A DNA stretch of 64,000 bases from positions 92,712 to 156,711 of the IMG/VR virus record IMGVR_UViG_3300042197_002147; one strand, 5' to 3'. The translations under genes were made by a program, and so were the position numbers. This stretch comes from a virus. The notes beneath the pieces were generated by a model. It saw only the letters and a program-made list of their open reading frames with translations, made no database searches and was not told the DNA's origin. Numbering within the stretch: position 1 is the stretch's first letter; each line of letters opens with the position of its first letter. This document shows positions 12,534 to 54,302 of the stretch, one piece after another.

Positions 12534-14465
12534 ATGAATGATATTAAATTGCCAACTCTTTATCAAGAGTTTATACACCTTTCTCGTTACTCACGCTGGC
12601 TTGAAACAGAAAAGAGGAGAGAAACATGGCAGGAAACTGTAAGTCGATATTTTAATTTCTTTGAAAGTCACCTCAAAGAAAAGCAAAATTTTATATTGAC
12701 TTCAGAATTAAGAAGTGAATTAGAAACAGCAGTTTTGAATTTAGAAATAATGCCTAGCATGAGAGCATTGATGACTGCTGGAGAGGCACTTGACCGCGAT
12801 AATACCGCAGGGTATAATTGCTCATATGTTGCAGTCAATCGTGTACGAGCATTTGATGAAATATTATACATACTCATGTGTGGCACCGGCGTCGGTTTCT
12901 CCGTCGAAAGACAATATGTTGAAAAACTTCCAACGATTGCGGAGGAATTTACAAACAGTGAAACCACTATTGTTGTCCAAGATAGTAAGGCTGGTTGGGC
13001 TAAGGCGTACAGGGAACTTGTTTCCTTACTTATTGGAGGCCAAATTCCAAAATGGGACATGTCAAAGGTTCGTCCTTCTGGCGCAAGACTTAAGACATTT
13101 GGTGGCCGTGCGTCCGGTCCGGGGCCATTGGAAGATCTCTTTAGATTCACAACTGACACTTTTAAAAAGGCTTCAGGAAGAAAACTCACTTCCATCGAAT
13201 GCCATGATATCGTCTGTAAGATTGCAGAAGTTGTCGTGGTCGGAGGTGTGCGACGATCTGCACTTATATCACTTAGTAATCTCACTGATGAACGGATGCG
13301 GGATGCAAAGTCAGGGGCTTGGTGGAACGACAATCCGCAACGCGCATTGGCCAACAACTCAGTTGCTTACAAAGAAAAACCAGACATGGGCATTTTCATG
13401 GAGGAATGGGTTTCTCTCTATAAGAGCAAGAGTGGTGAGCGTGGTATCTTCAATCGTGACGCTTGCAAAAAGACTGTTGCTAAACTAGGTGATCGTCGTG
13501 ATGCTGGTTATGAGTTTGGAACAAATCCTTGCTCAGAAATTATTCTTCGTGACCGTGAGTTTTGCAATTTAACAGAAGTTGTTGTTCGTTCCACAGATAC
13601 TGCCGAAGATCTTGCTCGAAAAGTTCGTTTAGCAACAATTCTTGGAACATTTCAAGCATCACTCACAAACTTTCCATATCTTTCTAGCGAATGGAAAAAG
13701 AATTGTGAAGAGGAATGTCTCTTGGGTGTGTCTTTAACCGGAATATTAGACAATGAAGACATGACTACGGATGTCATTAATCTAGAAAAGGGATTGGTAA
13801 AACTGAAACAAATAGCAATAGATGTCAACAAGGAATTTGCAAAAAAGATTGGAATCAACCAAGCAGCAGCAATTACTTGTGTAAAACCATCAGGAACAGT
13901 ATCACAACTTGTTGATGCTGCATCGGGAATTCATCCAAGACACAGCCAATACTATGTTAGAACAGTTCGTGCAGATAGAAAAGATCCACTATGTCAAATG
14001 ATGATTGACCTTGGATTTCCACACGAACCATGTGTAATGAAACCCGATTCTGTCATGGTTTTCTCTTTCCCGATGAAATCACCGGATGGTTGTCTGACAA
14101 GAAATGATTTAACCGCAATAGAACATTTACAACTTTGGTTAACTTATCAAAGGTTCTGGTGTGAGCATAAACCAAGCATAACAATCACTGTTCGTGAGAA
14201 TGAATGGATGGAGGTTGGTGCATGGGTCTACAAGCACTTTGATGAAATTAGCGGTATTTCATTCCTACCACACAGTGATCATAATTATCGCCAAGCACCC
14301 TATCAAGAGTGCGGAAAAGAAGAACATGATTTACTTTTGGCAAAAATGCCAAACGGTGTGAATTGGTTGGATTTGATTAAATACGAAAAAGAAGACAAAA
14401 CATCAGGAACACAAACTTTTGCCTGTAGTGGCGATAAGTGTGAATTAGTAGATATTACTTCTTAG
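12534..14465 (+). CDS. nrdJ: Class II (adenosylcobalamin-dependent) ribonucleotide reductase
   Basis: A 643-residue B12-dependent ribonucleotide reductase resembling the monomeric triphosphate reductase of Lactobacillus leichmannii. Visible hallmarks are the first redox Cys in A-G-Y-N-C-S-Y, the C-G-T-G-V-G-F-S loop, the thiyl-radical Cys in N-P-C-S-E-I, a following F-C-N-L-T-E, the K-P-S-G-T-V-S-Q loop, and the C-terminal redox pair in A-C-S-G-D-K-C-E. No separate radical subunit is needed. The start has a clear CAGGAG site. It makes deoxynucleotides for phage replication and needs host cobalamin. Confidence 0.93.
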   Translation: MNDIKLPTLYQEFIHLSRYSRWLETEKRRETWQETVSRYFNFFESHLKEKQNFILTSELRSELETAVLNLEIMPSMRALMTAGEALDRDNTAGYNCSYVAVNRVRAFDEILYILMCGTGVGFSVERQYVEKLPTIAEEFTNSETTIVVQDSKAGWAKAYRELVSLLIGGQIPKWDMSKVRPSGARLKTFGGRASGPGPLEDLFRFTTDTFKKASGRKLTSIECHDIVCKIAEVVVVGGVRRSALISLSNLTDERMRDAKSGAWWNDNPQRALANNSVAYKEKPDMGIFMEEWVSLYKSKSGERGIFNRDACKKTVAKLGDRRDAGYEFGTNPCSEIILRDREFCNLTEVVVRSTDTAEDLARKVRLATILGTFQASLTNFPYLSSEWKKNCEEECLLGVSLTGILDNEDMTTDVINLEKGLVKLKQIAIDVNKEFAKKIGINQAAAITCVKPSGTVSQLVDAASGIHPRHSQYYVRTVRADRKDPLCQMMIDLGFPHEPCVMKPDSVMVFSFPMKSPDGCLTRNDLTAIEHLQLWLTYQRFWCEHKPSITITVRENEWMEVGAWVYKHFDEISGISFLPHSDHNYRQAPYQECGKEEHDLLLAKMPNGVNWLDLIKYEKEDKTSGTQTFACSGDKCELVDITS

Positions 14466-14712
14466 TACCTTTTGTTCTACTTCTAATAATCTCGCGGATG
14501 TCCATCTCTTCATCTTGATGGGCATCCGCTTGTTTATGTAATTTTTCTGCCTTTTCTTGGTTTCCTGCCTCTTTTGCCTTGACAGCATTATCACGAACAA
14601 CACTTACTTTTTTGGAATAAGTGTTTCCGAGTTTTCTTAACTCGCTTGTTGGCAGTTTCATTAATTCTGACTTTGGGTGACTTTCTTTTAAAAATGATGC
14701 GAATGATTTCAT
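14455..14712 (-). CDS. Small protein with capsid-targeting-like N-terminus
   Basis: An 85-residue basic protein beginning M-K-S-F-A-S-F-L-K-E-S. This matches the MKxFxxF(L/I)xE pattern of T4 internal head proteins, with a likely prohead-protease cut after L-K-E. The rest is lysine-rich and helical. It is transcribed against nrdJ and overlaps its end by 11 bp, and it has its own late promoter at 14729-14736 and a GAGG ribosome site. Likely packaged in the head; function unknown. Confidence 0.6.
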   Translation of the reverse strand: MKSFASFLKESHPKSELMKLPTSELRKLGNTYSKKVSVVRDNAVKAKEAGNQEKAEKLHKQADAHQDEEMDIREIIRSRTKGTKK

Positions 14713-30144: not shown

Positions 30145-31313
30145 ATAGAATTGTTTTTTCTTTTTAAGGAAATCTCGGCTGCCTTCTTTGCTCTCATGCG
30201 AAGAATTTCTCTTGGAGTCATCTGACTTTCTGGTTTTTGAGGCATTGGTCTTTGACCCAATTTTGCAACTATTTGATCGTGGGACATTCCACCACGATCA
30301 GAAAGGCGATCATATTCTGCATCCCATCTTTCCTCTTCTTCTTTGCCTTCATTTATTTTTTTCTTGCGAATCTGCCGTCTTTGGCGATCCAACATTTTAA
30401 TTGCATGAAGAAGCGATCCTTCATTTTTCTTTTTACGATCTAAAAAGTAACTTGTGTTTACATGATATGGTCTACTGGCAGAAAAATCACCTCTTTCTGG
30501 TTTCCAATCTTCATCCTCTACTTTTTGATGTTCGGTGTTAATTGTGTGCGTCTTTGATAATTTTTTGGATAAAAAGTCATATAAACTTTTTCTAGTATCT
30601 CTCAGATCTCCACTTTTAGTTTTTTGCATCTCTTCACTTGGTGTTGAACTGGTAAATATTATTCGATCTGGATTATGTGATTTTAAATGATGACGAATTG
30701 CAGGCAAAACTGTTCGGAAAATTCCTAAAGACTTGTGACCTTCTTCGTCGGTTTTGCGCGACTCGCCATCAATATCAAAACTGATTTCGCTTGTGGTTCT
30801 TATTCCTTTTCTTTGCAAGGAAGGATGGGATTCTCTGTGATGAATGTAAACATTACCTTCTTTTCCTTCTGGTGTTCTGAAGGAATAAGTGTGTGATCCT
30901 TGTTCTCTGTATTTGGGGCCAAGCATTTCTGCATTTTTTCCGAAAGTGAAATCGGGTCTAAATGTATATGATAAATTATTTGATCCTTTTATTTTTCCTC
31001 GGTATACACGACTATGAGAACTCATTGGATCTAGTACTTTAGTAAAATATGGGTGTTTGCGAATTTTTTCGACAAATTTATCTCTCTCATTAACATCATC
31101 ATCTGTTAATGGTTTTTCTTTTGCTAGTTTAGGAAGTCTTTTGTTTTCCTTGTCTGCTTGTCTTGTTAACTTCACATAATCTTTTAACATTTCTCTGCTG
31201 ACACCTTTAATTGGATAATCTGCATCTCCAACACGAGAATGTTTTGTTGCAAAGAGATTTTGTCTCTTCTTTACTGCTTCATTAAGTTGATTGACAAGTT
31301 TTTCTATTTTCAT
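30141..31313 (-). CDS. Hypothetical capsid-targeted protein (390 aa)
   Basis: Starts M-K-I-E-K-L-V-N-Q-L-N-E-A, which fits the capsid-targeting pattern with a cut site L-N-E|A like T4 internal proteins. Residues 90-250 look like a globular, beta-rich domain with H-S-R-V-Y-R-G-K and S-Y-T-F-R-P-D-F. The C-terminal 100 residues are a charged coiled coil. No enzymatic motif is recognised. It overlaps the lysozyme gene by 4 bp, so the two are probably co-translated. Confidence 0.5.
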   Translation of the reverse strand: MKIEKLVNQLNEAVKKRQNLFATKHSRVGDADYPIKGVSREMLKDYVKLTRQADKENKRLPKLAKEKPLTDDDVNERDKFVEKIRKHPYFTKVLDPMSSHSRVYRGKIKGSNNLSYTFRPDFTFGKNAEMLGPKYREQGSHTYSFRTPEGKEGNVYIHHRESHPSLQRKGIRTTSEISFDIDGESRKTDEEGHKSLGIFRTVLPAIRHHLKSHNPDRIIFTSSTPSEEMQKTKSGDLRDTRKSLYDFLSKKLSKTHTINTEHQKVEDEDWKPERGDFSASRPYHVNTSYFLDRKKKNEGSLLHAIKMLDRQRRQIRKKKINEGKEEEERWDAEYDRLSDRGGMSHDQIVAKLGQRPMPQKPESQMTPREILRMRAKKAAEISLKRKNNSI

Positions 31314-32104
31314 TTTGAATATGTAGGTTCACCTTTCTGATTAAATCCAGACACCTTGCCTTGCCACATGGCGCCTTCCACTGATCTTCTTCTGACCAAA
31401 CCAGAACGAACTTGACCACCAGACTTGTTATAAAGGGACATAGCATTTGGTACTTCATGCCACTTTGATGGATCACTTAATTTTCCAGATATTGTCTCAA
31501 AACCTTTTTTGCCATAAAATCCTGTGCCAAAATTATGAGCAAACGATGTTACTGCTGCTTGCTGGTGTGGTTTCATTTTGTCCCAGTGTGGTACTGTCTT
31601 TGATAATTTGTTTTTCATATCTTCAACATGAGACTCAAGATGTTTGTCTGCTTCTTCTCTTGTGACACTATCACCAAGTTTTACTGGTCGTCCATCAGCG
31701 TGTCTTGTCATCCCCCATCCAATTGTCGGAACACCACTTTTTGTTAATTTATCAGCATAAGCATTTGATCTAAAACCTTCAAAATGTTTTATCACACCAT
31801 GCGAGAGATCAGTAAATCCAAGACCATTTGGTTTTGTTGGTTCTTGCTTTTGAACCTCTTTTTGTTTAGGTGCCGGGGATACTTGTGAAACAACCCTATT
31901 ACCAAGAGCATTGGGTTTTTCCTTTTGAGTATGCCCGGCTAGTGATAATGCAATTGGTACGGCTGCAAGACCAGCACCAATTCCTAAATTACGAATGAAA
32001 CTCTTTCCTTTTTTTGAAAAGATTGCTTCGTTTATTTTTTTTGTTTTTTTGGTCTTATACCTACAACCACAAGACTCTTCGTAAAACATTGAAAACGATT
32101 TCAT
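31310..32104 (-). CDS. GH24 lysozyme with capsid-targeting N-terminus and membrane helix
   Basis: A 264-residue protein. The N-terminus M-K-S-F-S-M-F-Y-E-E-S resembles the capsid-targeting peptide. A hydrophobic helix lies near residues 40-58 (G-I-G-A-G-L-A-A-V-P-I-A-L-S-L-A). Residues 95-235 are a T4-type lysozyme: H-F-E-G-F-R-S-N-A-Y contains the catalytic Glu, followed by G-V-P-T-I-G-W-G-M-T with the catalytic Thr/Asp region. It hydrolyses peptidoglycan. The signals suggest a virion-carried muramidase acting at entry, or a signal-anchor endolysin. The downstream zinc protease gene is coupled. Confidence 0.85.
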   Translation of the reverse strand: MKSFSMFYEESCGCRYKTKKTKKINEAIFSKKGKSFIRNLGIGAGLAAVPIALSLAGHTQKEKPNALGNRVVSQVSPAPKQKEVQKQEPTKPNGLGFTDLSHGVIKHFEGFRSNAYADKLTKSGVPTIGWGMTRHADGRPVKLGDSVTREEADKHLESHVEDMKNKLSKTVPHWDKMKPHQQAAVTSFAHNFGTGFYGKKGFETISGKLSDPSKWHEVPNAMSLYNKSGGQVRSGLVRRRSVEGAMWQGKVSGFNQKGEPTYSK

Positions 32105-32481
32105 TCATAAAACTCCGGGTATTCTTTACCATACATTCTTATTAATCTGCCTGCAAGTGCATTTGCTTCATCTTCGTGTGGAGAACCAGTTGAACCATCT
32201 AACATACTAGGGTCATCAATTTCTTCATGTTGTTTTTGATGAACCATTTCATGTGCAATACTTCTGCAAATATCACAAAGAGCGCGGTTCTTTACATAAA
32301 TTTTCATTTCACCATTGCCAAGATTATAATTTGCAGTTGTCATTTCTGGTTCACGAACCACCAACAATTTTATTATTGGTTTTCTTTTAATACCAAGAAC
32401 ATTTGTTGCAAAGTCAACAAAATGCCCAACTTTAGAATTGAGTTCTGTTGCTTCACGAAGATGTTGTTTGAATTTTTTCAT
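32101..32481 (-). CDS. Zincin-like metalloprotease with capsid-targeting N-terminus
   Basis: A 126-residue protein starting M-K-K-F-K-Q-H-L-R-E-A, a capsid-targeting-like leader with site L-R-E|A. The active site is visible as A-H-E-M-V-H-Q, the HExxH zinc motif, and a third ligand probably lies in E-D-E-A-N-A-L-A. Such small SprT/gluzincin-like proteases occur in T4-like phages. Carriage in the head and release on infection would make it an injected protease. Substrate unknown. Confidence 0.72.
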   Translation of the reverse strand: MKKFKQHLREATELNSKVGHFVDFATNVLGIKRKPIIKLLVVREPEMTTANYNLGNGEMKIYVKNRALCDICRSIAHEMVHQKQHEEIDDPSMLDGSTGSPHEDEANALAGRLIRMYGKEYPEFYE

Positions 32482-33116
32482 TATGGTTTTGGTGGTGGTG
32501 GTGGAGGTGGTGGCGGTGGAGGTGGTGGGGGAATCACTGGGATAGGGAAAGGAACCGGGAATATATCTTTCGTAGGAGTTCCCCCCTTGAATGGATATTC
32601 ATACATTGGTGGTTCGTAAGGTTCACCCGGAAGTTTTGGCCAATGATATGGCCAATCTTTATTCCATTTCCACTTTCCTACGGGACTTTCATCTCTTATT
32701 GCCGGTTTGTAAAATCGGTTTCCCGGAACTGCTGGACCGTTCCACCATTGATCCCATTTTTTTGCCCCCTTGTCAAGAAGACCCCATGGAATCACTTTTA
32801 AAGCTAGCTTCGCCAACCATTGGGACAATGATTCAGTTATATAATTTGCAACTTCATTTTTTTGTTGTTCTGTTATCTGTTGATTTAATAAAAATTTATA
32901 GTTATTTTTTATAAAATCTTCATCTTGTAACAGACATTCAAATAGAGTAAGAAGTGCAGCATCTTCTGTTGGTCTTTTTCTATTTTTATCCTCTAATAAA
33001 ATTTTATACATTTCTGGTGAATGATAAAGTTCTGTAATTATTTTTGATTTGTTTTCTAAAATAATTATTTTAAGATTTTCTTGAAGAGTGTATTGTTGTT
33101 GTTCAGTTAAATTCAT
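32481..33116 (-). CDS. Helical-module protein with polyproline tail
   Basis: A 211-residue protein of the proline-rich modular family. Residues 1-110 are helical, with L-L-Q-D-E-D-F-I-K-N-N-Y-K-F-L-L closely matching a segment of the protein at 53559 (M-S-D-Q-D-F-I-L-Q-N-Y-K-V-L). The N-terminal L-Q-E-N could be a protease site. The centre is Trp/Pro-rich and the end is a run of fourteen consecutive prolines. Probably a virion or internal structural protein. Function unknown. Confidence 0.55.
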   Translation of the reverse strand: MNLTEQQQYTLQENLKIIILENKSKIITELYHSPEMYKILLEDKNRKRPTEDAALLTLFECLLQDEDFIKNNYKFLLNQQITEQQKNEVANYITESLSQWLAKLALKVIPWGLLDKGAKKWDQWWNGPAVPGNRFYKPAIRDESPVGKWKWNKDWPYHWPKLPGEPYEPPMYEYPFKGGTPTKDIFPVPFPIPVIPPPPPPPPPPPPPPKP

Positions 33117-33313
33117 TTTTTTATATCTCTGATAAATTGTTTCAATGGAACATATTTTTTTATAGAGAAGCCCAATCTGTAAATTTTATTTTGAATTTTT
33201 TCAATTCCTGTTGGTTCTGGATAACCAGTTGGTGTGTTTAGTGGACCTATTTGTTTTTTTTGACCAGATGCTTTCTGATTTGCTTTAAAGTTCATTTTGT
33301 TTGAGCTTTTCAT
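33113..33313 (-). CDS. Hypothetical basic protein (66 aa)
   Basis: A 66-residue lysine-rich protein (M-K-S-S-N-K-M-N-F-K-A-N). An alternative start lies 18 bp downstream. It overlaps both neighbours in the late operon. No family recognised. It belongs to a run of small late genes (33113-34002), between the polyproline-tailed protein and the Gly/Pro-rich protein; none of them shows an enzymatic motif. Confidence 0.4.
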   Translation of the reverse strand: MKSSNKMNFKANQKASGQKKQIGPLNTPTGYPEPTGIEKIQNKIYRLGFSIKKYVPLKQFIRDIKK

Positions 33314-33818
33314 TTAGAATTTGAATGTATCTGTGTCTCAACATTTCTGGTAAATCGACACTTGGTGGTGGTGAGCCTGGTTTAGGTAATGGTATTGTCA
33401 CATGTTTCCAACCTTCTTGTGGGTCAAAGTGCCATGGATTGTTAGCGGGAATTGTTCCCCACCCTGGCCAAAATGGACCAGGATCTCCGGGATGAAAGTC
33501 TGGACCCCATTGACCGGGTGGAACCCAGTCGCCCCAATTTCCACCACCGGGAGTAAATGGCATATTGGGTGGAATATCTGGATTATATCCTTGCGGTCCG
33601 ATATCATCGCCCTGTCTTATTATACCTCTTATCCAATCTTTTATTACTCTCCTCAGTTCTGGTGGTATTCTTCCCTCTTTAAGTTCGCCTGAGTTTTCTA
33701 AATTAAAAATTATATAATTTAAGAAACTTTCCTCTAACATCATTTTTTCTATGATGTTTGAGCATTTTTTGTGTTCACTTAAAAATTTTGTAACTGATTG
33801 TTTTAGATTCTTATTCAT
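33285..33818 (-). CDS. Gly/Pro-rich modular protein (177 aa)
   Basis: A 177-residue member of the proline-rich modular family. An N-terminal helical part (K-F-L-S-E-H-K-K-C, then E-S-F-L-N-Y-I-I-F-N-L-E) includes an L-S-E protease-like site, and is followed by a Trp/Gly/Pro-rich region (P-P-G-Q-W-G-P-D-F-H-P-G). A short helix closes the protein. Likely virion-associated. Function unknown. Confidence 0.5.
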   Translation of the reverse strand: MNKNLKQSVTKFLSEHKKCSNIIEKMMLEESFLNYIIFNLENSGELKEGRIPPELRRVIKDWIRGIIRQGDDIGPQGYNPDIPPNMPFTPGGGNWGDWVPPGQWGPDFHPGDPGPFWPGWGTIPANNPWHFDPQEGWKHVTIPLPKPGSPPPSVDLPEMLRHRYIQILNEKLKQNEL

Positions 33819-35143: not shown

Positions 35144-35155
35144 TATTTATAAATA
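35144..35155. promoter_or_regulatory. Bidirectional late promoter TATTTATAAATA
   Basis: Two overlapping, oppositely oriented TATAAATA boxes (35144-35151 on -, 35148-35155 on +). They sit between divergent late genes starting at 35127 (-) and 35180 (+), each 17-25 bp away. Confidence 0.72.
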
Positions 35156-35179: not shown

Positions 35180-37855
35180 ATGAATCACAAAATAATTACC
35201 GAAAAAGAAAAATATTTAATCTCACAATTCATAAATGAAGAATTAAAAAATTTAGAAAAATTCATACAAACTCAGAGTGTGCTGGAAGAAAAAAAAGAAT
35301 TAAGATCCATGCTGGAGTCTTTGAATAGACCAAACATAACACACGAAATGTTACATGAGGGAAAACTCAAGGAGATATGGAAGTGGGTAAAAAAACTTTT
35401 CGGGGCGGCAGATGATGTTGCTCCACCAAAACCACCAGTTCCCACCCCACCACCACCATTTCCCAACAGACCCTCGCATCGGGTTCCGAATCCAGGAGAT
35501 GATGACTTCCAAGGAGCTCCATGGGACTGGACCGGACCAGAACCATGGGGTCCTTATGATTTAGATCCGTTAGACATTGACCCCAACGATTTAAACGAAA
35601 GTATATCATTAATTGACAGAATCAATGCCCTCGAAGAACTGTCAAATCAGTTGAACAGGAATTTGGTAAATGAATCAACCGAACTTACGAACTATTTGCT
35701 TGAAGCAATGGTCATGTTGAAAGATAAAAATTCAACATATAAAAATCTTTTAGAACGCTTTGGTAAAAAGTTTTTTGCATATTATATACCAAAAAGTACA
35801 TTTGACAGACTTATGGAAAACAAGACAAGAGGCAAGAAAATGGCCCCACCTCTCTTGCCTCCTTTGATTCCACAAGGCAAAAGAAACATTTTTTCAAATG
35901 ACGAAACCAATGATGGAAATATGGCACCACCGTTATTTCCGGGTAGCAGATTGTTGTCAAAATCAAACAGACCCCGTGGAGCATATCCAGTAGATGATGC
36001 TAGAATGGCACCACCGCTTCCAACTCCAAAAACACCTTTTGGTAGACCAACTTCATCTGGTGAACCAGAAGCACCATTCCAATATCCAAGTGGAGAGTGG
36101 AACGGAATTCCAATACCAGAGAATTATAAAAAATCAAACAGTGTTAGAAAGTTTTTAGGTATGGATTCTGAAGATTCAATCACACCACTGCCAGCACCAA
36201 ATATGCCAACTTTGGTTCCAATGAAAGAACCAAAAATGCAACAACAACACGGTGGTTTGATTCCACCGCCACAACAAGAAAGTTTTGTAGATTACAAAAA
36301 AAGGTGCTTAGAATCCTTAAATAAAATTGAAGAACAAATCTACTTATCAGAATCAATAACAAAAACAAAAGAAAATCAAGAGATACTTAAGCTTATACCC
36401 GTCTTGAGAGAAAACATAATTTCTTCTACAAATTATCAACAATTAAATGAGTTTATAGGGATGATAGGCAAATGGTTAGCTAAAAATTGGCCGCAACTTG
36501 CTTGGGACACTGGTGTAGAAACTGGTGTAGATATCTGGAAAGATAGTTATGATGATCCAAACTCTAATCCCGGAGGTTTTGGTCAATGGCCAAAAAATTT
36601 CGATGATGCATTTCCACCGATAACTATTCCAAACCCACCCCCAGGCGGTCTTCCTCCTCCGGGTGCAAATCCCTATCCATACCCACCGGCAAATTTTCCT
36701 CCAAAGGGGCCAGTTTTTGAAAACAAAATTTCATTTATACTCAAAGTAAAAGAACAACTAACTTTATCTGAGAGTATAAAAAAAACCATAGATGGTCAAG
36801 AAAAATTAAAATACATAGATTTTATTTTAGAAAATGCAGAAAGTAAACCAGAATTACTGAATGAATTTGTGCCGTTTGTCATAGGAGCAATTGCCAAAAC
36901 AGCAATGGATTTGGCTATTTGGGATGCACTTTCTAATCCAAATAAGTTCAACTGGTTTGGATTTGGAGGTCCACCAGCACCACCAGCACAAAAAGATCCA
37001 AAAGAGACACCAATAACAATTAAACCATGGAAACCGTGGACGCCACCACCTCCACCTTATTATGGTCAATTAACAGGAAAAACCCCTTCTGGTCAGTCAT
37101 CTGGTGAAAAAACTCCAACCACGCCAAAAGTTTCAGCAGAGGTTACTGAAAAATTCTTAAATGAAAAGAGAAGACGCGGAGGATCATCGGAGCAACCTCC
37201 ACCCCCGCCGCCAGGAGGACCTCTCGTGCCAGGAGTACTTCCACGGTGGAAACATGGTGGAGGGTTGTTGCCACCAAAAACTCCAAAACTTGACAAATAT
37301 TCACCAATGGCAGGATACGAGGACCCTAGTCCTCCATCTCCTCCACCGAATCCACCGCCACCACATGGTCCATGGGGTCCGCCACCACCACCGCCACCAC
37401 CAGGCCCACCACCAGGCCCACCACCGCCACCACCAGGCTCGCCACCAGGCCCACCACCAGGCTCGCCACCAGGCCCACCACCGCCACCACCCGGTTATTT
37501 GATGTCTCGGCCGCCGTCACCATTCCCACCGCTCCCACCACCGCCCCCACCGGGAGGTCGTCCAACTAGGCCTAGTTTCCCACCTCCTCCTCCACCACCA
37601 CCACCTTATCCAATGGTGACTGATATGGGATCGGGATCATCGGTTTACGAAGAACTAATTTCTGATGAACACCGTGTGAAATTGATGAGTTTGATTTCCG
37701 AAAGATATGAAAAGATTTTGATATCTGAAACAATTTCAAAATCTTTAAAATCTCAAGAAGAAAAGAGGCAATTAGAAGAATTGTATAAGTTGGTTTTTGA
37801 TCAAACATCAACATATGACAAATTACCTAATTTTCTGAAAGACTCTTTAAAATAA
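35180..37855 (+). CDS. Giant proline-rich modular virion protein (891 aa)
   Basis: Alternates roughly 60-residue helical modules with long Pro/Gly linkers. Modules share a pattern such as Y-L-S-E-S-I-T-K-T-K-E-N-Q-E, T-L-S-E-S-I-K-K-T-I-D-G-Q-E and I-S-E-T-I-S-K-S-L-K-S-Q-E, each with an (L/I)SE(S/T) site; N-terminal residues include F-I-N-E-E. Short repeats K-M-A-P-P-L, N-M-A-P-P-L and R-M-A-P-P-L occur near residues 220-280. Residues 715-815 are almost pure polyproline/PPG. It has a late promoter. A structural or internal-scaffold polyprotein cut by the prohead protease is possible; homologues of its modules are the proteins at 32481 and 53559. Confidence 0.6.
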   Translation: MNHKIITEKEKYLISQFINEELKNLEKFIQTQSVLEEKKELRSMLESLNRPNITHEMLHEGKLKEIWKWVKKLFGAADDVAPPKPPVPTPPPPFPNRPSHRVPNPGDDDFQGAPWDWTGPEPWGPYDLDPLDIDPNDLNESISLIDRINALEELSNQLNRNLVNESTELTNYLLEAMVMLKDKNSTYKNLLERFGKKFFAYYIPKSTFDRLMENKTRGKKMAPPLLPPLIPQGKRNIFSNDETNDGNMAPPLFPGSRLLSKSNRPRGAYPVDDARMAPPLPTPKTPFGRPTSSGEPEAPFQYPSGEWNGIPIPENYKKSNSVRKFLGMDSEDSITPLPAPNMPTLVPMKEPKMQQQHGGLIPPPQQESFVDYKKRCLESLNKIEEQIYLSESITKTKENQEILKLIPVLRENIISSTNYQQLNEFIGMIGKWLAKNWPQLAWDTGVETGVDIWKDSYDDPNSNPGGFGQWPKNFDDAFPPITIPNPPPGGLPPPGANPYPYPPANFPPKGPVFENKISFILKVKEQLTLSESIKKTIDGQEKLKYIDFILENAESKPELLNEFVPFVIGAIAKTAMDLAIWDALSNPNKFNWFGFGGPPAPPAQKDPKETPITIKPWKPWTPPPPPYYGQLTGKTPSGQSSGEKTPTTPKVSAEVTEKFLNEKRRRGGSSEQPPPPPPGGPLVPGVLPRWKHGGGLLPPKTPKLDKYSPMAGYEDPSPPSPPPNPPPPHGPWGPPPPPPPPGPPPGPPPPPPGSPPGPPPGSPPGPPPPPPGYLMSRPPSPFPPLPPPPPPGGRPTRPSFPPPPPPPPPYPMVTDMGSGSSVYEELISDEHRVKLMSLISERYEKILISETISKSLKSQEEKRQLEELYKLVFDQTSTYDKLPNFLKDSLK
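37380..37496 (+). repeat. Tandem CCACCAGGC-type minisatellite coding PPG
   Basis: Tandem and near-tandem 9-bp units (ccaccaggc and variants ccaccgcca) encode G-P-P-P and S-P-P-G runs of the 891-residue protein. The repeat is coding, and copy number may vary between isolates through slippage. Confidence 0.75.
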
Positions 37856-38877: not shown

Positions 38878-38900
38878 ACCCGGTGCAACGAGCACCGGGT
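38878..38900 (-). terminator. Intrinsic terminator at the left border of the GC-rich island
   Basis: Perfect 9-bp stem ACCCGGTGC/GCACCGGGT with 5-nt loop, followed on the - strand by seven T. It ends leftward transcription from the vWA gene cluster. Confidence 0.85.
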
Positions 38901-38917
38901 CTATGCAGACCAAACAA

Positions 38918-39193
38918 TCAGGAGATGGGAGCGTCGTCCGGGTCGGGGAAGTGTCGCGCCATCAGACTCGGCCCGGGAGGGGGAGTGCCAGGCCATCCTC
39001 GCGGCGCAGACTCACTCAGCACATCCTTGTACCGCTCTGCGAGAATCGGTTGAAGCGGCATATGCTTCACTCGCCGGCGCGCCTCCACGCGAATCCACTT
39101 CGGAACCCGAGGAGTCTTTTGTGGATCCATCAGGTCGTACAGAAACCGAGTGGCGGACAGAATTGCGTTGTACTCCTCATACGGTAGCGTCAT
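38918..39193 (-). CDS. Hypothetical protein (91 aa), GC-rich island
   Basis: Starts at 39193 with M-T-L-P-Y-E-E-Y-N-A, preceded by GGAGGACACC. The middle is basic (R-V-E-A-R-R-R-V-K-H) and the end Pro-rich. Start overlaps the upstream gene by 17 bp. No family recognised. Confidence 0.5.
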   Translation of the reverse strand: MTLPYEEYNAILSATRFLYDLMDPQKTPRVPKWIRVEARRRVKHMPLQPILAERYKDVLSESAPRGWPGTPPPGPSLMARHFPDPDDAPIS

Positions 39194-39353
39194 TGGTGTC
39201 CTCCATGATGTGCTTGAAGCAGTACTGACACAGGACTGCTGACTCTCCCTCGTTCGCAGAGTCGATGTCGCAGGGGAGTTGCGAAACGACGAAACGCTCT
39301 TGCAGTCGCGGAAGCGACTTGGCACAGTTGTCGCAGAAGAATGAATCTCTCAT
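39177..39353 (-). CDS. Small zinc-ribbon-like protein (58 aa)
   Basis: A 58-residue protein with two Cys pairs, F-F-C-D-N-C-A-K and L-C-Q-Y-C-F-K, spaced about 30 residues apart, as in a minimal zinc ribbon. Preceded by AGAGGACACC. It lies between the vWA gene and the 91-residue protein on one - strand transcript. Confidence 0.55.
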   Translation of the reverse strand: MRDSFFCDNCAKSLPRLQERFVVSQLPCDIDSANEGESAVLCQYCFKHIMEDTNDATV

Positions 39354-39372
39354 GTTGATCGGTGTCCTCTTT

Positions 39373-41706
39373 TTACTTGGCGATCAGGTCGATGAAGCGG
39401 TTGAGCATGACGCGGGACTTCATGCGCTTGGCGGCGGTCGCCATGAACGCATTCTTGATCTTGGTCATGCTGGCGTCTGCCGCAAGCGTGTCCATCGCGT
39501 TGTCGTTCTCCACGCGCATATTAGCGCGGATGATGTACTGCTCCGTGTAACCACTCGCGGTCGGATGCACGATGGAGAAACCGTCATCGCGGTAGGACGC
39601 GATCTGCTTGTTGGTGTACTCGTTGTTCACCGTGCTGTTCTTCTGCACACGCGAACCGTTCTTGTCCTTCGTGTACTCGCGGAACAGGTGGGTCATGTGG
39701 TTCACATTGGGACGACCGTAGAGGAAGAACCCAATCGCATTGCACCCGGTGCGGTCGCGGAACACCTCAAGCAGAGTGTTCGTACTCGTCCCGCCGATCT
39801 CGTAGGTCTTGCGAGTGACCGGATCGGTCAGGAACTTGCGAGTGTAGTAACCGCTGCCGTAGGCAAAGCAACCCGAGGTTTCACCGTCCGTGAGGAACAC
39901 GGAGTGAACGATCTGCAGCCGGTTGTCCTCGCGGAACTTGGGCACGATCTGCATGGCGGCCGCGATGGACTCGTCAAGCGGCGTGCTGCTCAGACCAAGG
40001 CAGCTCGGGAGAGCGTAGTACGACGAACCTTCGGTCTGTCCGAGAGCAATGGCGAACAGGTTTTCCATCGCCTGCTTGAACTGATTCGGGCGCATCTTGG
40101 ACGACAGGAAGTTCAGCAGACTGAACATATGGAACTTAGCGTCGATGTTGGGATCCTTGACATTCCACTGCTGACTGCTGACGCTCTGCTCGTAGTGATC
40201 CTTGTTAGCGAGATCCTTGTGAATCACGCAGCTCGTGAACGCATAGACCTCGAACGGAATGTTGCACCGGCGGCAGAACAGAGCGATCTGCATGAGCTGC
40301 TTCACGGTGTCAAGCAGCGTAGGGCCCATCGAACCCGACCAGTCGATGAACATGACGAGTCCGTGATTCTTGCCCTCGCGCACCACAGCGTTGCGGCGGA
40401 AGATGTCATCGGTGATCTTGTAGTTCACCATGCGAACGGTGTCAAGGACGCCGGTGCGGGCGACCGAGGTACGCTTCGCAGCATCAGCAGCCTTGCGGAG
40501 GTCGAACTGCTTTGCCATCAGCGACACCACCGGCGCAGAGTCCGCAGCGAACTTGGCGTAGTCCTTGCGAGCCCGAGCGAACAGGTCGTCGTGAGTGGCG
40601 ACCGTGTTGGCGGACATGGTGGCGCGGTGCTGCGTGATCAGATCCTGAATCTCTGCGTAGGAGATGATGATCTTGTCCAAGTTGCACGACGGCAGACTAA
40701 AGTACTGATACGAACTGGCCTTCTTGTCGGTCATGTTCTTGACCGCAGAATCGAACTTCTCCTGCGTGATCGAAGAAGGCGCAGCAGACTTGTGCTGCAT
40801 CTTGTTCGCACCCGAACCCGTGGAAGCGCCAGCGTTGTTGCTCTGCGGGGTCGTCTTGTTGGGGTCGCCGTCACCACGCTGGCCAGCACCCTGCTTGCCG
40901 TTGGTGGACGAACCATCGTCCGAAGAATTCGCGTCAGCGTTGTCGATGTCCGACCCGTTGGAATCGTCCTGACCGTCACCACTCGTCGGGATCGGCGTAG
41001 TGTCACCGTCATCGCCGGCGTCACCATCGCCGCCAGAAGTCGCGTTCTGCTTCTCCGCTTCCTCCTTGAGGCGCGACTCGTACTGCCAGATGTCGTCCAC
41101 GATGTTCTTCACATCGTCAAAGGTACGGCAAGCGTCGATGCGCTTGATGAACGACTGCTCCACGGGCGAGAACTGAATACCCGTGTCCATGCAAGTGCCC
41201 ATCTTGTAGTGAAGGTTGATGCGGTCGATCAGCGACAACTTGTTGAGGTCGCGCCCCTTGACGCCGAAGAAGTCGCTGGCGACGAACTGCTCATACGCCT
41301 TGTAGAAGTCGCGGCGCATACCGGGGAACTTCTCCTTCATCAACTTTTCGATGCGGGCGTCCTCCACGATGTTCATGTAGACCTGAGCAACGGACGCATG
41401 AGCGGTTCCGGCGATCTCCTCAGCGGCGCCGCACCACGGGCCCTGCACCTTGTTGTCCGCATCGGTGTGCGGCGTGAACAGCGCGTGACCAACCTCGTGG
41501 CCGACGAGCATATCGTAGACCTCGTTGGTCATGCCCGTCCAGGCGGGCAGGATCAGGACGCGGTTCTTGGTGTCGAACGCGGCCGTGCTGGCCTTGGGGT
41601 TGTGCTGCACGGTGATGTTCTCCGTGGCGAGGATGCGCGCCAGCAGATCCTTGCTGGCGGTGTTGACGGTGCGGGCGGGCGAAGAAACGGTAGAAACAGT
41701 CTGCAT
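39373..41706 (-). CDS. CobT-like protein with zincin motif and von Willebrand A domain
   Basis: A 777-residue protein. Near residue 70 it has V-G-H-E-V-G-H-A-L-F-T-P, an HExxH zincin-like motif, followed by V-E-D-A-R-I-E-K-L. The centre is a low-complexity acidic linker (D-G-D-A-G-D-D-G-D). The C-terminal vWA domain has the MIDAS motif F-I-D-W-S-G-S-M-G and F-L-T-D-G-E-T-S. This is the CobT/vWA partner of MoxR/CobS AAA+ ATPases, whose gene is divergent next door. Such pairs act as metal chelatases or remodelling machines. The start at 41706 is set by its promoter. Strongly GC-biased codons. Confidence 0.82.
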   Translation of the reverse strand: MQTVSTVSSPARTVNTASKDLLARILATENITVQHNPKASTAAFDTKNRVLILPAWTGMTNEVYDMLVGHEVGHALFTPHTDADNKVQGPWCGAAEEIAGTAHASVAQVYMNIVEDARIEKLMKEKFPGMRRDFYKAYEQFVASDFFGVKGRDLNKLSLIDRINLHYKMGTCMDTGIQFSPVEQSFIKRIDACRTFDDVKNIVDDIWQYESRLKEEAEKQNATSGGDGDAGDDGDTTPIPTSGDGQDDSNGSDIDNADANSSDDGSSTNGKQGAGQRGDGDPNKTTPQSNNAGASTGSGANKMQHKSAAPSSITQEKFDSAVKNMTDKKASSYQYFSLPSCNLDKIIISYAEIQDLITQHRATMSANTVATHDDLFARARKDYAKFAADSAPVVSLMAKQFDLRKAADAAKRTSVARTGVLDTVRMVNYKITDDIFRRNAVVREGKNHGLVMFIDWSGSMGPTLLDTVKQLMQIALFCRRCNIPFEVYAFTSCVIHKDLANKDHYEQSVSSQQWNVKDPNIDAKFHMFSLLNFLSSKMRPNQFKQAMENLFAIALGQTEGSSYYALPSCLGLSSTPLDESIAAAMQIVPKFREDNRLQIVHSVFLTDGETSGCFAYGSGYYTRKFLTDPVTRKTYEIGGTSTNTLLEVFRDRTGCNAIGFFLYGRPNVNHMTHLFREYTKDKNGSRVQKNSTVNNEYTNKQIASYRDDGFSIVHPTASGYTEQYIIRANMRVENDNAMDTLAADASMTKIKNAFMATAAKRMKSRVMLNRFIDLIAK

Positions 41707-41714
41707 AGACCCCC

Positions 41715-41743
41715 ATTTTACCAAAACCCTGTAAAACCTGCAA
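41715..41743 (-). promoter_or_regulatory. Host-type promoter, leaderless, for vWA gene
   Basis: On the - strand: TTGCAG (41743-41738), 17 bp spacer, TAAAAT (41720-41715), then GGGGGTCT and the ATG. The same sequence block (TTTTGGTARAATGGGGGTCT) precedes the divergent AAA+ gene. Confidence 0.75.
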
Positions 41744-41806
41744 GCCTAGAATCTATCTTTTCTAAGTCCTTATAGGACAATGACTTACGCTCTTTTCCGG
41801 GGGGTA

Positions 41807-41840
41807 GCGTCCGATAATAACTATCATCGCGTCCGATAAT
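41807..41840. repeat. Paired GCGTCCGATAAT motifs
   Basis: Two copies of GCGTCCGATAAT (41807-41818, 41829-41840) separated by AACTATCATC, in the divergent intergenic region. Related copies recur at 47944-47956 and in an array at 49201-49300. Possible operator or origin iteron. Confidence 0.5.
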
Positions 41841-41950
41841 ATCGAGGTGCGCGAAAAACCCCTGTTTTTATAGGGATAACTAATCCGGACTTTGAAAATT
41901 GATCGTAAGTCCTTTATTATCAGGGGTTTAAGAAAATGGTAGCTGGGGGG

Positions 41951-41979
41951 TTGCGTCTTTGGCGCCGTTTTGGTAGAAT
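41951..41979 (+). promoter_or_regulatory. Host-type promoter, leaderless, for AAA+ ATPase gene
   Basis: TTGCGT (41951-41956), 17 bp spacer, TAGAAT (41974-41979), then 8 nt to the ATG at 41988. Confidence 0.75.
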
Positions 41980-41987
41980 GGGGGTCT

Positions 41988-43247
41988 ATGTCTACTCTCT
42001 CTGCCAAGCAGAACTCGTTCGTTTCCGCTCTCGCCTCCATCACCACCGCGTCGCCCGTGTCGCGTCAGGATCTCCTGCGCGCCGCGAACAGCATCGGGCA
42101 GAAGTTCCCGCCCGCGTGGATCGTCAAGGACACCGCGCGCCACGCCGGTCGCGGTCTGTTCCATGTCCCCGAACTGACCGGCGGTGCGGTGACGGCCGCT
42201 CCCGCGACCAAGAAGGTCGCCGCGCCCAAGTCGGAACCCGCGCCCGTCAAGTCGGTGCCGGTTGCGACTGCGCCGGTCAAGATCGCCGCTGCTGCGCCCA
42301 TGCAACTCGCTGGCGCTGCTGCGTCCGTCATGGGTATGACGGGTGGCGAGCGTTCGACGCTCATCCCCGCCGTCTGCCCGGAGTATGTCGCGTGGGGTCA
42401 CTTCAGCGACATCGAAAAGATTCTCAAGACCGGGATGTTCGCGCCGGTGTTCGTCACGGGTCTGTCGGGCAACGGCAAGACCACGATGATCGAACAGGTC
42501 TGCGCGAAGCTCGGGCGCGAGTGCTTCCGCGTCAACATCGTCGCGGAGACTGACGAGGACGATCTGTTCGGCGGTTTCCGTCTGAACAACGGGAACATGG
42601 AGTGGCACGACGGCCCCGTTGTGCTTGCGATGAAGCGCGGCGCGGTGCTGCTGCTTGACGAGATCGACCTCGGCAGCGACAAGCTCATGTGCTTGCAGTC
42701 GGTGCTTGAGGGCAAGGGCGTCTACCTCAAGAAGATCAACCAGTGGGTCGTGCCGCAGTCCGGGTTCACGGTGTTCGCCACCGCGAACACGAAGGGCAAG
42801 GGTGACGAGGCGGGTCGGTTCGCCGGCACTCGCGTCCTCAACGAGGCGATGCTTGACCGTTTCGACTACACCTACGAGCAGGAGTACGCCAGCAAGGCGA
42901 CCGAGAAGAAGATCCTGCTGCGCGCCATGAAGAAGTTCGGCGCGACGGACGATGCGTTCGCGGACAACCTCACCAAGTGGGCGGACATGATCCGCAAGGC
43001 GTACATGGAGGGCGCCTGCGACGAGATCATCTCCACTCGCCGTCTGATCAACATCTGCAAGGCGAACATCGTGTTCGCTGACAAGGTGAAGGCGGTCAAG
43101 ATGGCGCTGTGCCGGTTCGACACTTCCACGCAGGAGTCGTTCTTCAACTCGTACAGCAAGATCGACGCGGAGGTTGCGAACGCGCAGGACGCCGCTGCTG
43201 CTGCCCAGGCGCAGCCCACGCAGACCACCACCACTTGCCCGTTCTGA
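41988..43247 (+). CDS. MoxR/CobS-like AAA+ ATPase
   Basis: A 419-residue ATPase. Residues 1-60 form a small domain ending P-P-A-W-I-V-K-D, then G-R-G-L-F-H-V-P, which recurs alone in the gene at 48340. An Ala/Pro-rich linker follows. The motor has Walker A G-L-S-G-N-G-K-T-T, Walker B V-L-L-L-D-E-I-D, sensor I A-T-A-N-T and the R-V-L-N-E-A-M-L-D-R-F box. This matches CobS-type cobaltochelatase/MoxR ATPases common in T4-like phages. Its partner is the divergent vWA/CobT-like gene. It may remodel a protein or metal complex; cobalamin relevance is inferred. Confidence 0.88.
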   Translation: MSTLSAKQNSFVSALASITTASPVSRQDLLRAANSIGQKFPPAWIVKDTARHAGRGLFHVPELTGGAVTAAPATKKVAAPKSEPAPVKSVPVATAPVKIAAAAPMQLAGAAASVMGMTGGERSTLIPAVCPEYVAWGHFSDIEKILKTGMFAPVFVTGLSGNGKTTMIEQVCAKLGRECFRVNIVAETDEDDLFGGFRLNNGNMEWHDGPVVLAMKRGAVLLLDEIDLGSDKLMCLQSVLEGKGVYLKKINQWVVPQSGFTVFATANTKGKGDEAGRFAGTRVLNEAMLDRFDYTYEQEYASKATEKKILLRAMKKFGATDDAFADNLTKWADMIRKAYMEGACDEIISTRRLINICKANIVFADKVKAVKMALCRFDTSTQESFFNSYSKIDAEVANAQDAAAAAQAQPTQTTTTCPF

Positions 43248-43263
43248 TCGGAGGAACCACGCG

Positions 43264-43794
43264 ATGATGCCCATTCCCAAGAATCCTCCCTCCATCTCGG
43301 AGGGTTTTTCGTTTGAAGAAATCGTGAAGGGAATTCAAGAACTCACGATACTGGCGAAAGAAAACACCGTGAGTGATCCGATTCTCGAAAAGGAGTCCGA
43401 AGAAATGTCCGACAATCCGTACTGCGTTCAGCAACCGGGTGCCACACGCACTCCCCTGCGAACACCAAATCAAACTGTGCAGGGAAACCTCACCGCCGCA
43501 ACTCTGCGGGCCAATGGTGGTCGAAAGGTGTTTCACTTCTATTGGACTGGCGAGATGAACGACACGGAGTTTGTGCATCTGTTCGTTGAGTGTCCTCAAT
43601 CCAATCTTGGTTCCGACAGCGTACTCAATCGGACATTCATTCGTGAAGGATCGTGGATGATTGACAACAACACCTTCTACAGTCTGTCCAAGCAGGAGGC
43701 GCGGCGCATTTGGGATTATCTTCAGCGTCAGGGATACGCTTGCGAGAGCGGCGCGCGCCCGTTGGGAATGACCACGCTCATCAAACCGGAATAA
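43264..43794 (+). CDS. Hypothetical protein (176 aa), GC-rich island
   Basis: Start at 43264 follows GGAGGAACC. N-terminal 60 residues are disordered; residues 85-176 look globular (K-V-F-H-F-Y-W-T-G-E-M-N-D and S-K-Q-E-A-R-R-I-W-D-Y-L). The gene is 16 bp behind the AAA+ ATPase and ends in a strong terminator, so it belongs to that transcript. Function unknown. Confidence 0.55.
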   Translation: MMPIPKNPPSISEGFSFEEIVKGIQELTILAKENTVSDPILEKESEEMSDNPYCVQQPGATRTPLRTPNQTVQGNLTAATLRANGGRKVFHFYWTGEMNDTEFVHLFVECPQSNLGSDSVLNRTFIREGSWMIDNNTFYSLSKQEARRIWDYLQRQGYACESGARPLGMTTLIKPE

Positions 43795-43798
43795 AACG

Positions 43799-43823
43799 CC
43801 CGCGCCCAGGCGCGGGTTTTTTT
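43799..43823 (+). terminator. Intrinsic terminator
   Basis: CCCGCGC/GCGCGGG stem with CCAG loop, followed by seven T. Confidence 0.85.
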
Positions 43824-43833
43824 ATTTTACCCC

Positions 43834-43861
43834 TTGACTATCATCAAATGTTTGTTATAAT
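43834..43861 (+). promoter_or_regulatory. Strong host-type promoter
   Basis: TTGACT, 16 bp spacer, TATAAT (43856-43861). The next gene starts at 43888 with an AAGGAA ribosome site, so this promoter makes an ordinary leader. Confidence 0.8.
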
Positions 43862-43887
43862 AAATCTCGTTCAAGAAAGGAACACAT

Positions 43888-44103: not shown

Positions 44104-44148
44104 TCGAATGCAACGCGCCGAGTGCAACGCTCGGCACATTCCCGGCCC

Positions 44149-44185
44149 AATGCCAATGGCAAAGCTTCGGCGTGCCATTGGCATT
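44149..44185. repeat. Perfect 13-bp inverted repeat
   Basis: AATGCCAATGGCA (44149-44161) and TGCCATTGGCATT (44173-44185), loop 11 nt. Just upstream GCCGAG/CTCGGC forms a second hairpin. No T-run follows, so a protein-binding site or RNA structure is as likely as a terminator. Confidence 0.55.
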
Positions 44186-44223
44186 GGCGCCAGATGGGGT
44201 GTGCCATTTCCACTTTTTGGTGG

Positions 44224-44251: not shown

Positions 44252-44258
44252 GGACAGC

Positions 44259-45850: not shown

Positions 45851-45852
45851 AA

Positions 45853-51674: not shown

Positions 51675-51721
51675 TATGATTCCCGGTAAAAAGAATTCTT
51701 TAGATAAATATTGTTATGAAA
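51675..51721 (+). repeat. 47-bp direct repeat, copy 1 (late promoter module)
   Basis: Identical to 51970-52016. It contains AAGAATTCTT, a late-promoter-like GATAAATA, and the ATGAAA start of the downstream gene. Confidence 0.85.
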
Positions 51722-51934
51722 ACATTTAAGCAATATATCAATGAAATCTTTGACGAACGCATAGATTCTGTATTGGCTCAAAAACTGGCACATCATTCAG
51801 AGGAACAATTAAAGAAACATAAAAAACTTCTTTCTATGATGAAAATCGCAATGAATGATCCAAGAATCTTAAAGATAAATCAGCAAATACAAAACCGTCA
51901 AAAAACACAAGAACGCCTCAATAAAAGAGCATAA
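51716..51934 (+). CDS. Capsid-targeted small protein (72 aa)
   Basis: Starts M-K-T-F-K-Q-Y-I-N-E-I-F, the capsid-targeting pattern with site I-N-E|I. The rest is a charged helix (H-H-S-E-E-Q-L-K-K-H-K-K). The start and promoter lie in the 47-bp repeat. Likely an internal head protein. Confidence 0.6.
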   Translation: MKTFKQYINEIFDERIDSVLAQKLAHHSEEQLKKHKKLLSMMKIAMNDPRILKINQQIQNRQKTQERLNKRA

Positions 51935-51969: not shown

Positions 51970-52016
51970 TATGATTCCCGGTAAAAAGAATTCTTTAGAT
52001 AAATATTGTTATGAAA
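51970..52016 (+). repeat. 47-bp direct repeat, copy 2 (late promoter module)
   Basis: Identical to 51675-51721, again ending in the ATGAAA of the next capsid-targeted gene. Duplication of a promoter-start module probably allowed one gene to become two. Confidence 0.85.
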
Positions 52017-52793
52017 TCGTTTCTTCAATACATCACGGAGGACATGCCAGCAGAAGTTAGTTATGGTATACGACCCTCCGTTAGCAAAAAACCAAGACAA
52101 TCAAAATCAAAATTGATCGGAAAAATTGGTCCATATGAAGTTCACCACCACGCTAAGGATGCCGAGGATGGTCCTACAATATCCATTCGACATAAGGGTG
52201 ATCAAGTCGGTCAAATGGAGCTCTTAAGAGCCGGAAAACATGTCCAAGTATCAGAACCAATGGTGGTGGGAAGTCATAGAGGAAAAAACGCATTAGTAAA
52301 GAATCTAATTCCAAAAGTCTATTCTATGATTGCAGATAAAATTGCACCAGTTCAATCGGGGGAGTTACAGACAAAGCGTGGAAGATCTGTCTGGAGAAGA
52401 TTGTCTGCTCTTCGTCCCTTAAAGATTCACTCTCCATATTCTATCGAAAGATTCGCCCACCCAAAACACCCAACTCTAGCACTTCATGGTGTTCATTTTG
52501 ATGACTATGTGGATGCTCATGGGGGTGGGAATTGGTCGGAGGCCAATCTAAGACGAGCAAAAAGAATATTGGCACAACATGGAATGACAAAACACAGTCT
52601 TGCACAGATGAAAAGAATCAAAGATCTTCCAAACCCTGATGAGTTCAAAAGAACCTTTGTAAACCCAAAAAAGATTGCTAGATATGATCCGGCCAAGCAC
52701 GATTCATTCGTGTATTCGAAGGATGAATATCATGGATCAGCTTCACATATTGTTTTGCGTACTCAACCAAAAGGTAGAAAATCCTCTAAATAG
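52011..52793 (+). CDS. Capsid-targeted protein (260 aa)
   Basis: Starts M-K-S-F-L-Q-Y-I-T-E-D, capsid-targeting pattern with site I-T-E|D. Residues 45-120 have a GNAT-like feel (V-S-E-P-M-V-V-G-S-H-R-G-K-N-A-L-V), similar to the acetyl-CoA-loop region seen in some phage internal proteins. The C-terminal 120 residues are basic and Ala-poor. Probable virion protein. Function unknown. Confidence 0.55.
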   Translation: MKSFLQYITEDMPAEVSYGIRPSVSKKPRQSKSKLIGKIGPYEVHHHAKDAEDGPTISIRHKGDQVGQMELLRAGKHVQVSEPMVVGSHRGKNALVKNLIPKVYSMIADKIAPVQSGELQTKRGRSVWRRLSALRPLKIHSPYSIERFAHPKHPTLALHGVHFDDYVDAHGGGNWSEANLRRAKRILAQHGMTKHSLAQMKRIKDLPNPDEFKRTFVNPKKIARYDPAKHDSFVYSKDEYHGSASHIVLRTQPKGRKSSK

Positions 52794-53558: not shown

Positions 53559-54302
53559 ATGGATCATTTATTTCACAAAAACTTATTAGCAGAAAAACAC
53601 AATCTTGAATGGCAATTGGCTCAGGCAAATATCAAGATAAAGAATCTCGAAGAACAACTCAATAGAGTCAAGAGACAAACAGTTTTGTCTGAGGAAATTG
53701 GTGTACCAAATGTACCACCACTTCCAAAACCAACGCCTCAACCGATGCCTCAACCATTGCCATTACCGGACGAGAGCAGACCAGTTCCAATGCCAAAACC
53801 AAAACCACCAATACCAGCAATGCCTTCTTTAGATGATATTAAAGAATTCATTAGAAAATATTTGAGTGGAGGTGGTGGAAATCAAATTACTGAAAATATT
53901 GAAAGGAATATTGCTGAGTGCATTTTTGAAAATAGAAACTTAATAATTCAAAACATGATGCACAATAGTCCAAATTTGTTTGAAAACAGACAAATAGATT
54001 CAGAAGTTGCTACAAAAATTCTTTATGTTGTCATGGAAGATATAATGAGTGACCAAGACTTCATTTTACAAAACTATAAAGTTCTTGGAGCACCAACTTT
54101 AACTGAAGATGCAAGAAATGTCATCATGGAAAGATTTGGTTTAGGAAAACTTTTAGGAAAAATAATTAGAAAAGTTGCAGGATATTTTGGCGGAGGAAAG
54201 AAAGTAATTCCACCTCCACAGACTCCCGGAGATCCACTTGTTAGAATTGGTCCAAAGGGAACAGATTACGAAAGAATCATAAGACCTGAAGACATAAGAT
54301 AA
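53559..54302 (+). CDS. Proline-rich modular protein (247 aa), paralogue of 32481
   Basis: N-terminal coiled coil (L-E-W-Q-L-A-Q-A-N-I-K-I-K) with L-L-A-E-K, then a proline linker rich in P-x-P-x-P, then a helical module with I-M-S-D-Q-D-F-I-L-Q-N-Y-K-V-L that matches the protein at 32481. A Gly-rich amphipathic end follows (L-L-G-K-I-I-R-K-V-A-G-Y-F-G-G). Same family as the 891-residue gene. It is late and probably virion-associated. Confidence 0.6.
   Translation: MDHLFHKNLLAEKHNLEWQLAQANIKIKNLEEQLNRVKRQTVLSEEIGVPNVPPLPKPTPQPMPQPLPLPDESRPVPMPKPKPPIPAMPSLDDIKEFIRKYLSGGGGNQITENIERNIAECIFENRNLIIQNMMHNSPNLFENRQIDSEVATKILYVVMEDIMSDQDFILQNYKVLGAPTLTEDARNVIMERFGLGKLLGKIIRKVAGYFGGGKKVIPPPQTPGDPLVRIGPKGTDYERIIRPEDIR

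Follow-up and report, generated by a model that had tools for sequence, protein, structure and literature searches.

In bacteriophage T4, the prohead protease gp21 follows an L/I-X-E cleavage rule, and cutting of the scaffold core proteins yields multiple fragments, most of which are expelled from the head (PMC9026906). In the T4 capsid-targeting sequence, residues 4 and 7 are important to targeting, and residues 8 and 10 to processing (PMC9026906). The internal proteins IPI, IPII and IPIII receive one N-terminal cut and constitute a folded payload. In the giant phages phiKZ, 201phi2-1 and SPN3US, which belong to a different phage group and protease branch, the prohead protease cuts head and ejection proteins after Glu, with several redundant sites in the propeptide regions, and we know of no report of polyproline linkers in these proteins. 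Among the papers searched, none describes a proline-rich substrate of a prohead protease or a head polyprotein. PRO-BIG, as we name here the product of one gene of a T4-like phage, shares with the T4 gp22/gp68 core a helical nature, a very high density of (L/I)xE motifs and, to judge from its promoter sequence, perhaps late expression, but it is encoded outside the head cassette, contains long polyproline linkers and is an orphan. Its likeness to T4 IPI, IPII, IPIII and Alt is of another kind: the gene likewise appears to be accessory and lineage-specific, and the phage uses T4-register targeting N-termini, one of which is attached to Pro-rich cargo in its relatives. In contrast to the internal proteins, PRO-BIG has 22 predicted cut sites, lacks a strict targeting N-terminus and would carry low-complexity polyproline cargo.

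The source virus record is 156,711 bases long, and the window, by which we mean the whole stretch of DNA analyzed, is its final 64 kb. PRO-BIG is encoded there by a single intact ORF of 891 residues (19% Pro) on the + strand, both neighboring genes being on the - strand (Table 1), which agrees with the Pro-rich modular protein that an earlier, sequence-only reading had proposed at this position. Upstream of the gene, the palindrome TATTTATAAATA (window 35144-35155) consists of two overlapping divergent T4-type late promoters. The promoter octamer TATAAATA is found in 12 copies in the window where 2.95 are expected; a copy is at 53351, near p53559. Judged from its promoter sequence, PRO-BIG is probably expressed late.

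Table 1. Features of the window discussed in the text (arrows mark candidate cuts after Glu).
Feature	Position in window	Strand	Basis or remark
PRO-BIG, Pro-rich modular, 22 (L/I)xE sites	35180..37855	+	ORF and motif count
Module M1, helical, residues 1-80, LHE↓GKLKEIWKWVKKLFGAADD at its end, then Pro-rich stretch	35180..35419	+	
Module M2, residues 135-218, LNES at residue 138	35582..35833	+	
Module M3, residues 367-456, LSESITK at 389, LNE↓FIGMIGKWLAKNW at 422	36278..36547	+	
Module M4, residues 513-605, LSESIKK at 529, LNE↓FVPFVIGAIAKTA at 560	36716..36994	+	
Longest polyproline stretch, ~residues 670-820, partly tandem DNA repeat	37187..37639	+	
Module M5, residues 823-891, ISETISK at 848, C-terminus	37646..37852	+	
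T4-type late promoter TATAAATA	35148..35155	+	32 nt 5' of PRO-BIG ATG
Divergent TATAAATA, overlaps + copy, faces 34735 gene	35144..35151	-	24 nt before 34735 gene
p32481, 211 aa, helical module, LAKLALKV-type helix, Pro tail	32481..33116	-	
p33285, 177 aa, second half Pro/Trp-rich	33285..33818	-	
p53559, 247 aa, module homologous to p32481	53559..54302	+	
MKSFASFLKE↓, 85-aa protein	14455..14712	-	capsid-targeting-type N-terminus
MKKFKQHLRE↓, capsid-targeting-type N-terminus of short protein with HEMVHQKQHE motif (putative metalloprotease)	32101..32481	-	
MKTFKQYINE↓, 72-aa protein	51716..51934	+	capsid-targeting-type N-terminus
MKSFLQYITE↓, 260-aa protein	52011..52793	+	capsid-targeting-type N-terminus

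As for the modular organization of PRO-BIG, M3, M4 and M5 are, by sequence, true repeats: over shuffles, the alignment of M3 with M4 has z = 13.7, that of M3 with M5 z = 4.5 and that of M4 with M5 z = 2.9. The (L/I)SE(S/T)I-x-K motif is present in these three copies (residues 389, 529 and 848), with LNES at residue 138 representing a partial fourth copy, and three (L/I)xE sites (LSE, LRE or ILE, and LNE) are in register between M3 and M4. The N-terminal M1 is weakly similar to the other modules. An AlphaFold model of a PRO-BIG module is all-helical, with modest confidence (mean pLDDT 66). The sequence-only reading had described such recurring helical modules with this motif, and had suggested aligning the modules to quantify the repeat and predicting the structure of one of them; both exercises agree with it. 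Its further statement that p32481, p33285 and p53559 share modules with PRO-BIG is overstated. Module comparisons rejected the presence of the LSES module in the three partners, but p32481 and p53559 have a helical module of their own in common (z = 16, E ~1e-6), for which the structural model reaches a pTM of 0.70. As for p33285, it is marginally similar to M1/M4 of PRO-BIG (z ~2.8) and, by sequence, nearly alone among the four proteins. The resemblance among the four is architectural: they have in common a layout, in which a helical part is followed by a Lys/Trp-containing helix and a Pro-rich stretch, and an excess of (L/I)xE sites, which number 8 in p32481 (2.6 expected), 6 in p33285 (1.9 expected) and 10 in p53559 (3.7 expected). 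The N-terminus of p53559 (MDHLFHKNLLAE↓) is kept in three related contigs.

The (L/I)xE count of each ORF was compared with shuffles, genome-wide, for the 132 ORFs of at least 100 residues outside a GC-rich block. With global shuffling, PRO-BIG ranks first of 132 (22 seen vs. about 8.4 expected, z 5.2), followed in order by gp22 (16 vs. 6.9, z 4.1), gp21 (10 vs. 3.5, z 4.1), p53559 (z 4.0), the 26432 ORF on the - strand (4 vs. 0.8, z 3.8), p32481 (z 3.8) and p33285 (z 3.3). When shuffling is confined to 20-residue blocks, a local control that removes the unevenness between helices and linkers, PRO-BIG ranks 4 (22 vs. 12.3), p53559 3, p32481 7 and p33285 11, so that gp21, p53559, PRO-BIG, gp22 and p32481 all stay within the top seven. 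With random ranks, the four named ORFs would be found in the top 7 with p = 2.9e-6 and in the top 11 with p = 2.7e-5. The excess in PRO-BIG is not explained by repetition because 16 sites vs. 5.3 expected remain once M4 and M5 are left out (z = 5.0 global, 3.3 local). Nor is LSES special, although the sequence-only reading had pointed to it as a cleavage-like site: it belongs to a set of 22 (L/I)xE sites, and without the LSES modules PRO-BIG still has 12 vs. 3.8 expected (z 4.5 global, 2.9 local). Inspection of the P1' residue at (L/I)xE sites revealed no discriminating preference.

PRO-BIG and its partners are not separated, under global shuffle, by the control motifs (L/I)E, (L/I)xxE, (L/I)xxxE, (L/I)xD, (L/I)xK and (V/M/F)xE, a subset of the controls being repeated under local shuffle. 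The exception is E-x-(L/I), which in PRO-BIG reaches a z of 4.3 with global and 2.6 with local shuffling and is raised in p53559 too, and part of the excess is therefore general helix composition. When applied to T4, the same statistic places gp22 first of 190 (z 5.0), gp21 second, Inh, the annotated head-protease inhibitor (L107:45328-46008), 7th, gp68 9th and gp23 10th, whereas proteins with a single cut, such as IPIII and Alt, escape it. Two other T4-like contigs likewise have gp21 and gp22 among their top three. The statistic is imperfectly specific, since a protein that we take to be gp4-like and a head-completion candidate (L002:5868-6299, - strand) scores high in several genomes, its excess recurring in relatives. 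An HNH/HTH-like short protein in the window (26432-26812, - strand) also has an (L/I)xE excess; for it and the gp4-like protein alike, the score may be a false positive or may mark a further substrate.

The protease that could act on PRO-BIG is encoded by the same phage. The contig has a T4-type head cassette, ~70 kb away from the PRO-BIG gene, in which portal, gp68-like protein, gp21 protease, gp22 scaffold and gp23 follow each other in T4 order. The gp21-type protease (phrog_207, E = 1.4e-81) and the gp22 scaffold (phrog_237, E 4.5e-65) are clear matches, but the gp68-like protein is named on a weak match (phrog_1064 "prohead," 1.6e-6) and in part on its position. The gp23 sequence reads MLTE↓APAN close to where a T4-type cut is expected, in agreement with the cut type of T4 gp23. 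The link that the sequence-only reading drew between the repeated motif and the prohead-protease rule is strengthened by the presence of this protease together with the L/I-X-E rule of T4 (PMC9026906), by the ranking of PRO-BIG and its partners beside gp22 and gp21 among the 132 ORFs, and by the recovery of gp22 and gp21 in the T4 control.

Since its motif excess is as strong as that of gp22, PRO-BIG is probably packed in the forming head and cut there. Sequence statistics give good support to PRO-BIG as a substrate of the prohead protease, and we estimate at roughly 60% the probability that it and its three partners are late proteins of the prohead interior that the phage's own gp21 cuts at many sites. 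What we observe is the ORF, its repeats, the motif excess and its specificity, the protease and scaffold genes in the same genome and the late promoter sequence; that the proteins are packaged and cut, what becomes of the fragments and what they might do in the next host we infer from there. The helical modules, in which (L/I)xE is dense, would attach to the scaffold core and, upon gp21 activation, would be cut to small peptides in the manner of gp22. Between them, stretches almost devoid of (L/I)xE would emerge as intact fragments, several of them composed of a Lys/Trp-containing helix and then 50-180 Pro-rich residues, and these would either stay with the DNA or leave the head. (L/I)xE sites flank rather than interrupt most Pro-rich stretches. 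Predicted digestion at every (L/I)xE reduces the helical parts to pieces ~5-25 residues long. The Pro-rich fragments that it leaves measure 75, 101, 71, 107, 100 and 179 residues for PRO-BIG and 116, 110, 51 and 56 residues for the partners, and several of them would begin with a Lys/Trp helix (IWKWVKKLFGAADD, SLSQWLAKLALKVIPWG, RFGLGKLLGKIIRKVAG). If this reading is true, head proteolysis in a T4-like phage has gone beyond the trimming of single internal proteins to the processing of a modular, multi-site precursor.

The substrate reading contains two narrower versions, whose probabilities overlap with its own. The first, which we hold to be a serious possibility although short of probable, is that PRO-BIG is an accessory scaffold-core protein with a gp67/gp68-like role, its modules assembling with gp22, its polyproline serving as spacers and all of its fragments being discarded. 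This accords with a motif density equal to that of gp22 and gp21, with the all-helical modules in the predicted structures, with the lack of any catalytic or binding domain recognized in Pfam, PHROGs, PDB and Foldseek searches, and with the departure from the head of most fragments of the T4 core (PMC9026906). The homology searches fit it less well. PRO-BIG has no homologue by DNA or protein in phage records, a single blastn match being discarded as low-complexity polyproline DNA, and IMG/VR scans with whole PRO-BIG, p32481 and module profiles A1 and A3 found none either. Pfam and PHROGs gave nothing above noise for PRO-BIG and no gp22/gp67/gp68 or Inh family match, a PDB sequence search gave no match, and Foldseek with the p53559-module model against viral and PDB libraries gave nothing below E 0.001. 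A relation of the modules to gp22, gp21 or the gp68-like protein of the same phage was set aside as not convincing (z at most ~3). By these sequence and fold comparisons, the PRO-BIG modules are orphans without homologue in IMG/VR, phage records, the PDB and fold libraries. In T4-like phages, the core proteins are conserved ones encoded in the head cassette, and we know of none in T4 with polyproline as a feature; in contrast, PRO-BIG is a polyproline-containing orphan outside the cassette, and it is missing at this position in the close relatives L092 and L095. In these two syntenic contigs, the homologues of 37868 and of 34735 enclose other genes, including one on the opposite strand that starts with MKSFKQHL(L/Q)E. 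Because of these replacement genes, the PRO-BIG locus resembles a site at which head-cargo genes are exchanged. This would suit an accessory function more than an essential one in the core.

We find it rather doubtful that the motif excess is a coincidence, PRO-BIG being in that case a non-head protein (e.g., host-surface or lysis-associated) made of helical Leu/Glu-rich modules and Pro linkers. The nearby endolysin gene at 31310, the raised E-x-(L/I) in two of the four proteins and the gp4-like protein as a false positive would be in keeping with this, but the excess outlasts both local shuffling and repeat removal, known substrates are recovered by the same test and inspection of the PRO-BIG sequence reveals neither a signal peptide nor a transmembrane pattern.

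Next, we considered capsid-targeting N-termini, using a strict T4-register pattern, MKx(F/Y)xx(F/Y/H)(L/I)xE at the N-terminus with Glu at residue 10. Four N-termini in the exact T4 IPIII register are encoded in the PRO-BIG genome, where 0.007 are expected, and 16 further ones in five related contigs (G027-G031). Each phage would accordingly be expected to package several accessory proteins in its head, the putative metalloprotease at 32101 among them. The strict pattern is absent from PRO-BIG itself, which begins with MNHKIITEKEKYLISQFINE and has only a QFINE ending at residue 20. In three related contigs, MKTFKQYILE↓ or MKTFKQYISE↓ stands immediately in front of a Pro/Trp-rich protein of 90-100 residues, which adjoins the p53559 homologue; head-targeted Pro-rich cargo is therefore predicted in the lineage. 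The proteins with MKxFxxYLxE↓ N-termini in the exact IPIII register are mostly unrelated to each other, and besides those in the window the set includes proteins at L114:1998-6243, L118:5131-8261, L120:2855-5105 and 10175-10471, and L122:1863-4798.

The second narrower version, which we consider unlikely and which takes up the suggestion of the sequence-only reading that the protein could mature into Pro-rich peptides inside the head, is a payload polyprotein, a precursor from which gp21 would release polyproline peptides with amphipathic helices, retained in the head and delivered to the next host like the T4 internal proteins. These form a diverse injected set in T4, and related phages do combine a canonical targeting peptide with Pro-rich cargo. 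Predicted digestion leaves the Pro-rich stretches mostly whole, with the Lys/Trp helix at or near the start of those after M1, M3, M4, p32481, p33285 and p53559. The hydrophobic moment of this helix is exceptional in three of the six, with percentiles of 0.998 for M1, 1.000 for p33285 and 0.995 for p53559, but the ordinary amphipathicity in M3, M4 and p32481 (0.88, 0.60 and 0.84) speaks against this version.

That PRO-BIG is a decoy or inhibitor, an (L/I)xE-rich protein occupying gp21 in the way annotated for T4 Inh, is improbable despite the rank of Inh for the same excess (7/190), since PRO-BIG has no PHROG or Pfam family match, the polyproline linkers would be left unexplained and there are four such proteins, not one. 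Inh itself has 5% Pro and no Pro-rich parts.

Returning to the reading that we prefer, of multi-site gp21 substrates inside the prohead, the (L/I)xE excess together with targeting N-termini would provide a simple computable signature for picking out the head-bound ones among the unknown late proteins of T4-like environmental phages. This signature, which was checked on T4, points to heads, where counter-defence cargo is expected.

Two further features of the window deserve mention. An endolysin/phage lysozyme is encoded at 31310-32104 on the - strand, with an N-terminus (MKSFSMFYEES) that resembles the targeting pattern without meeting it, and it is possibly either head-borne or a lysis enzyme. 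The GC-rich block at 38900-51800, with 50-65% G+C vs. ~35% in its flanks, contains a VWA-type gene at 39373. An assembly chimera was set aside as an explanation for this 38.9-51.8 kb block, which is unlike a simple chimera because related contigs carry some of its genes.
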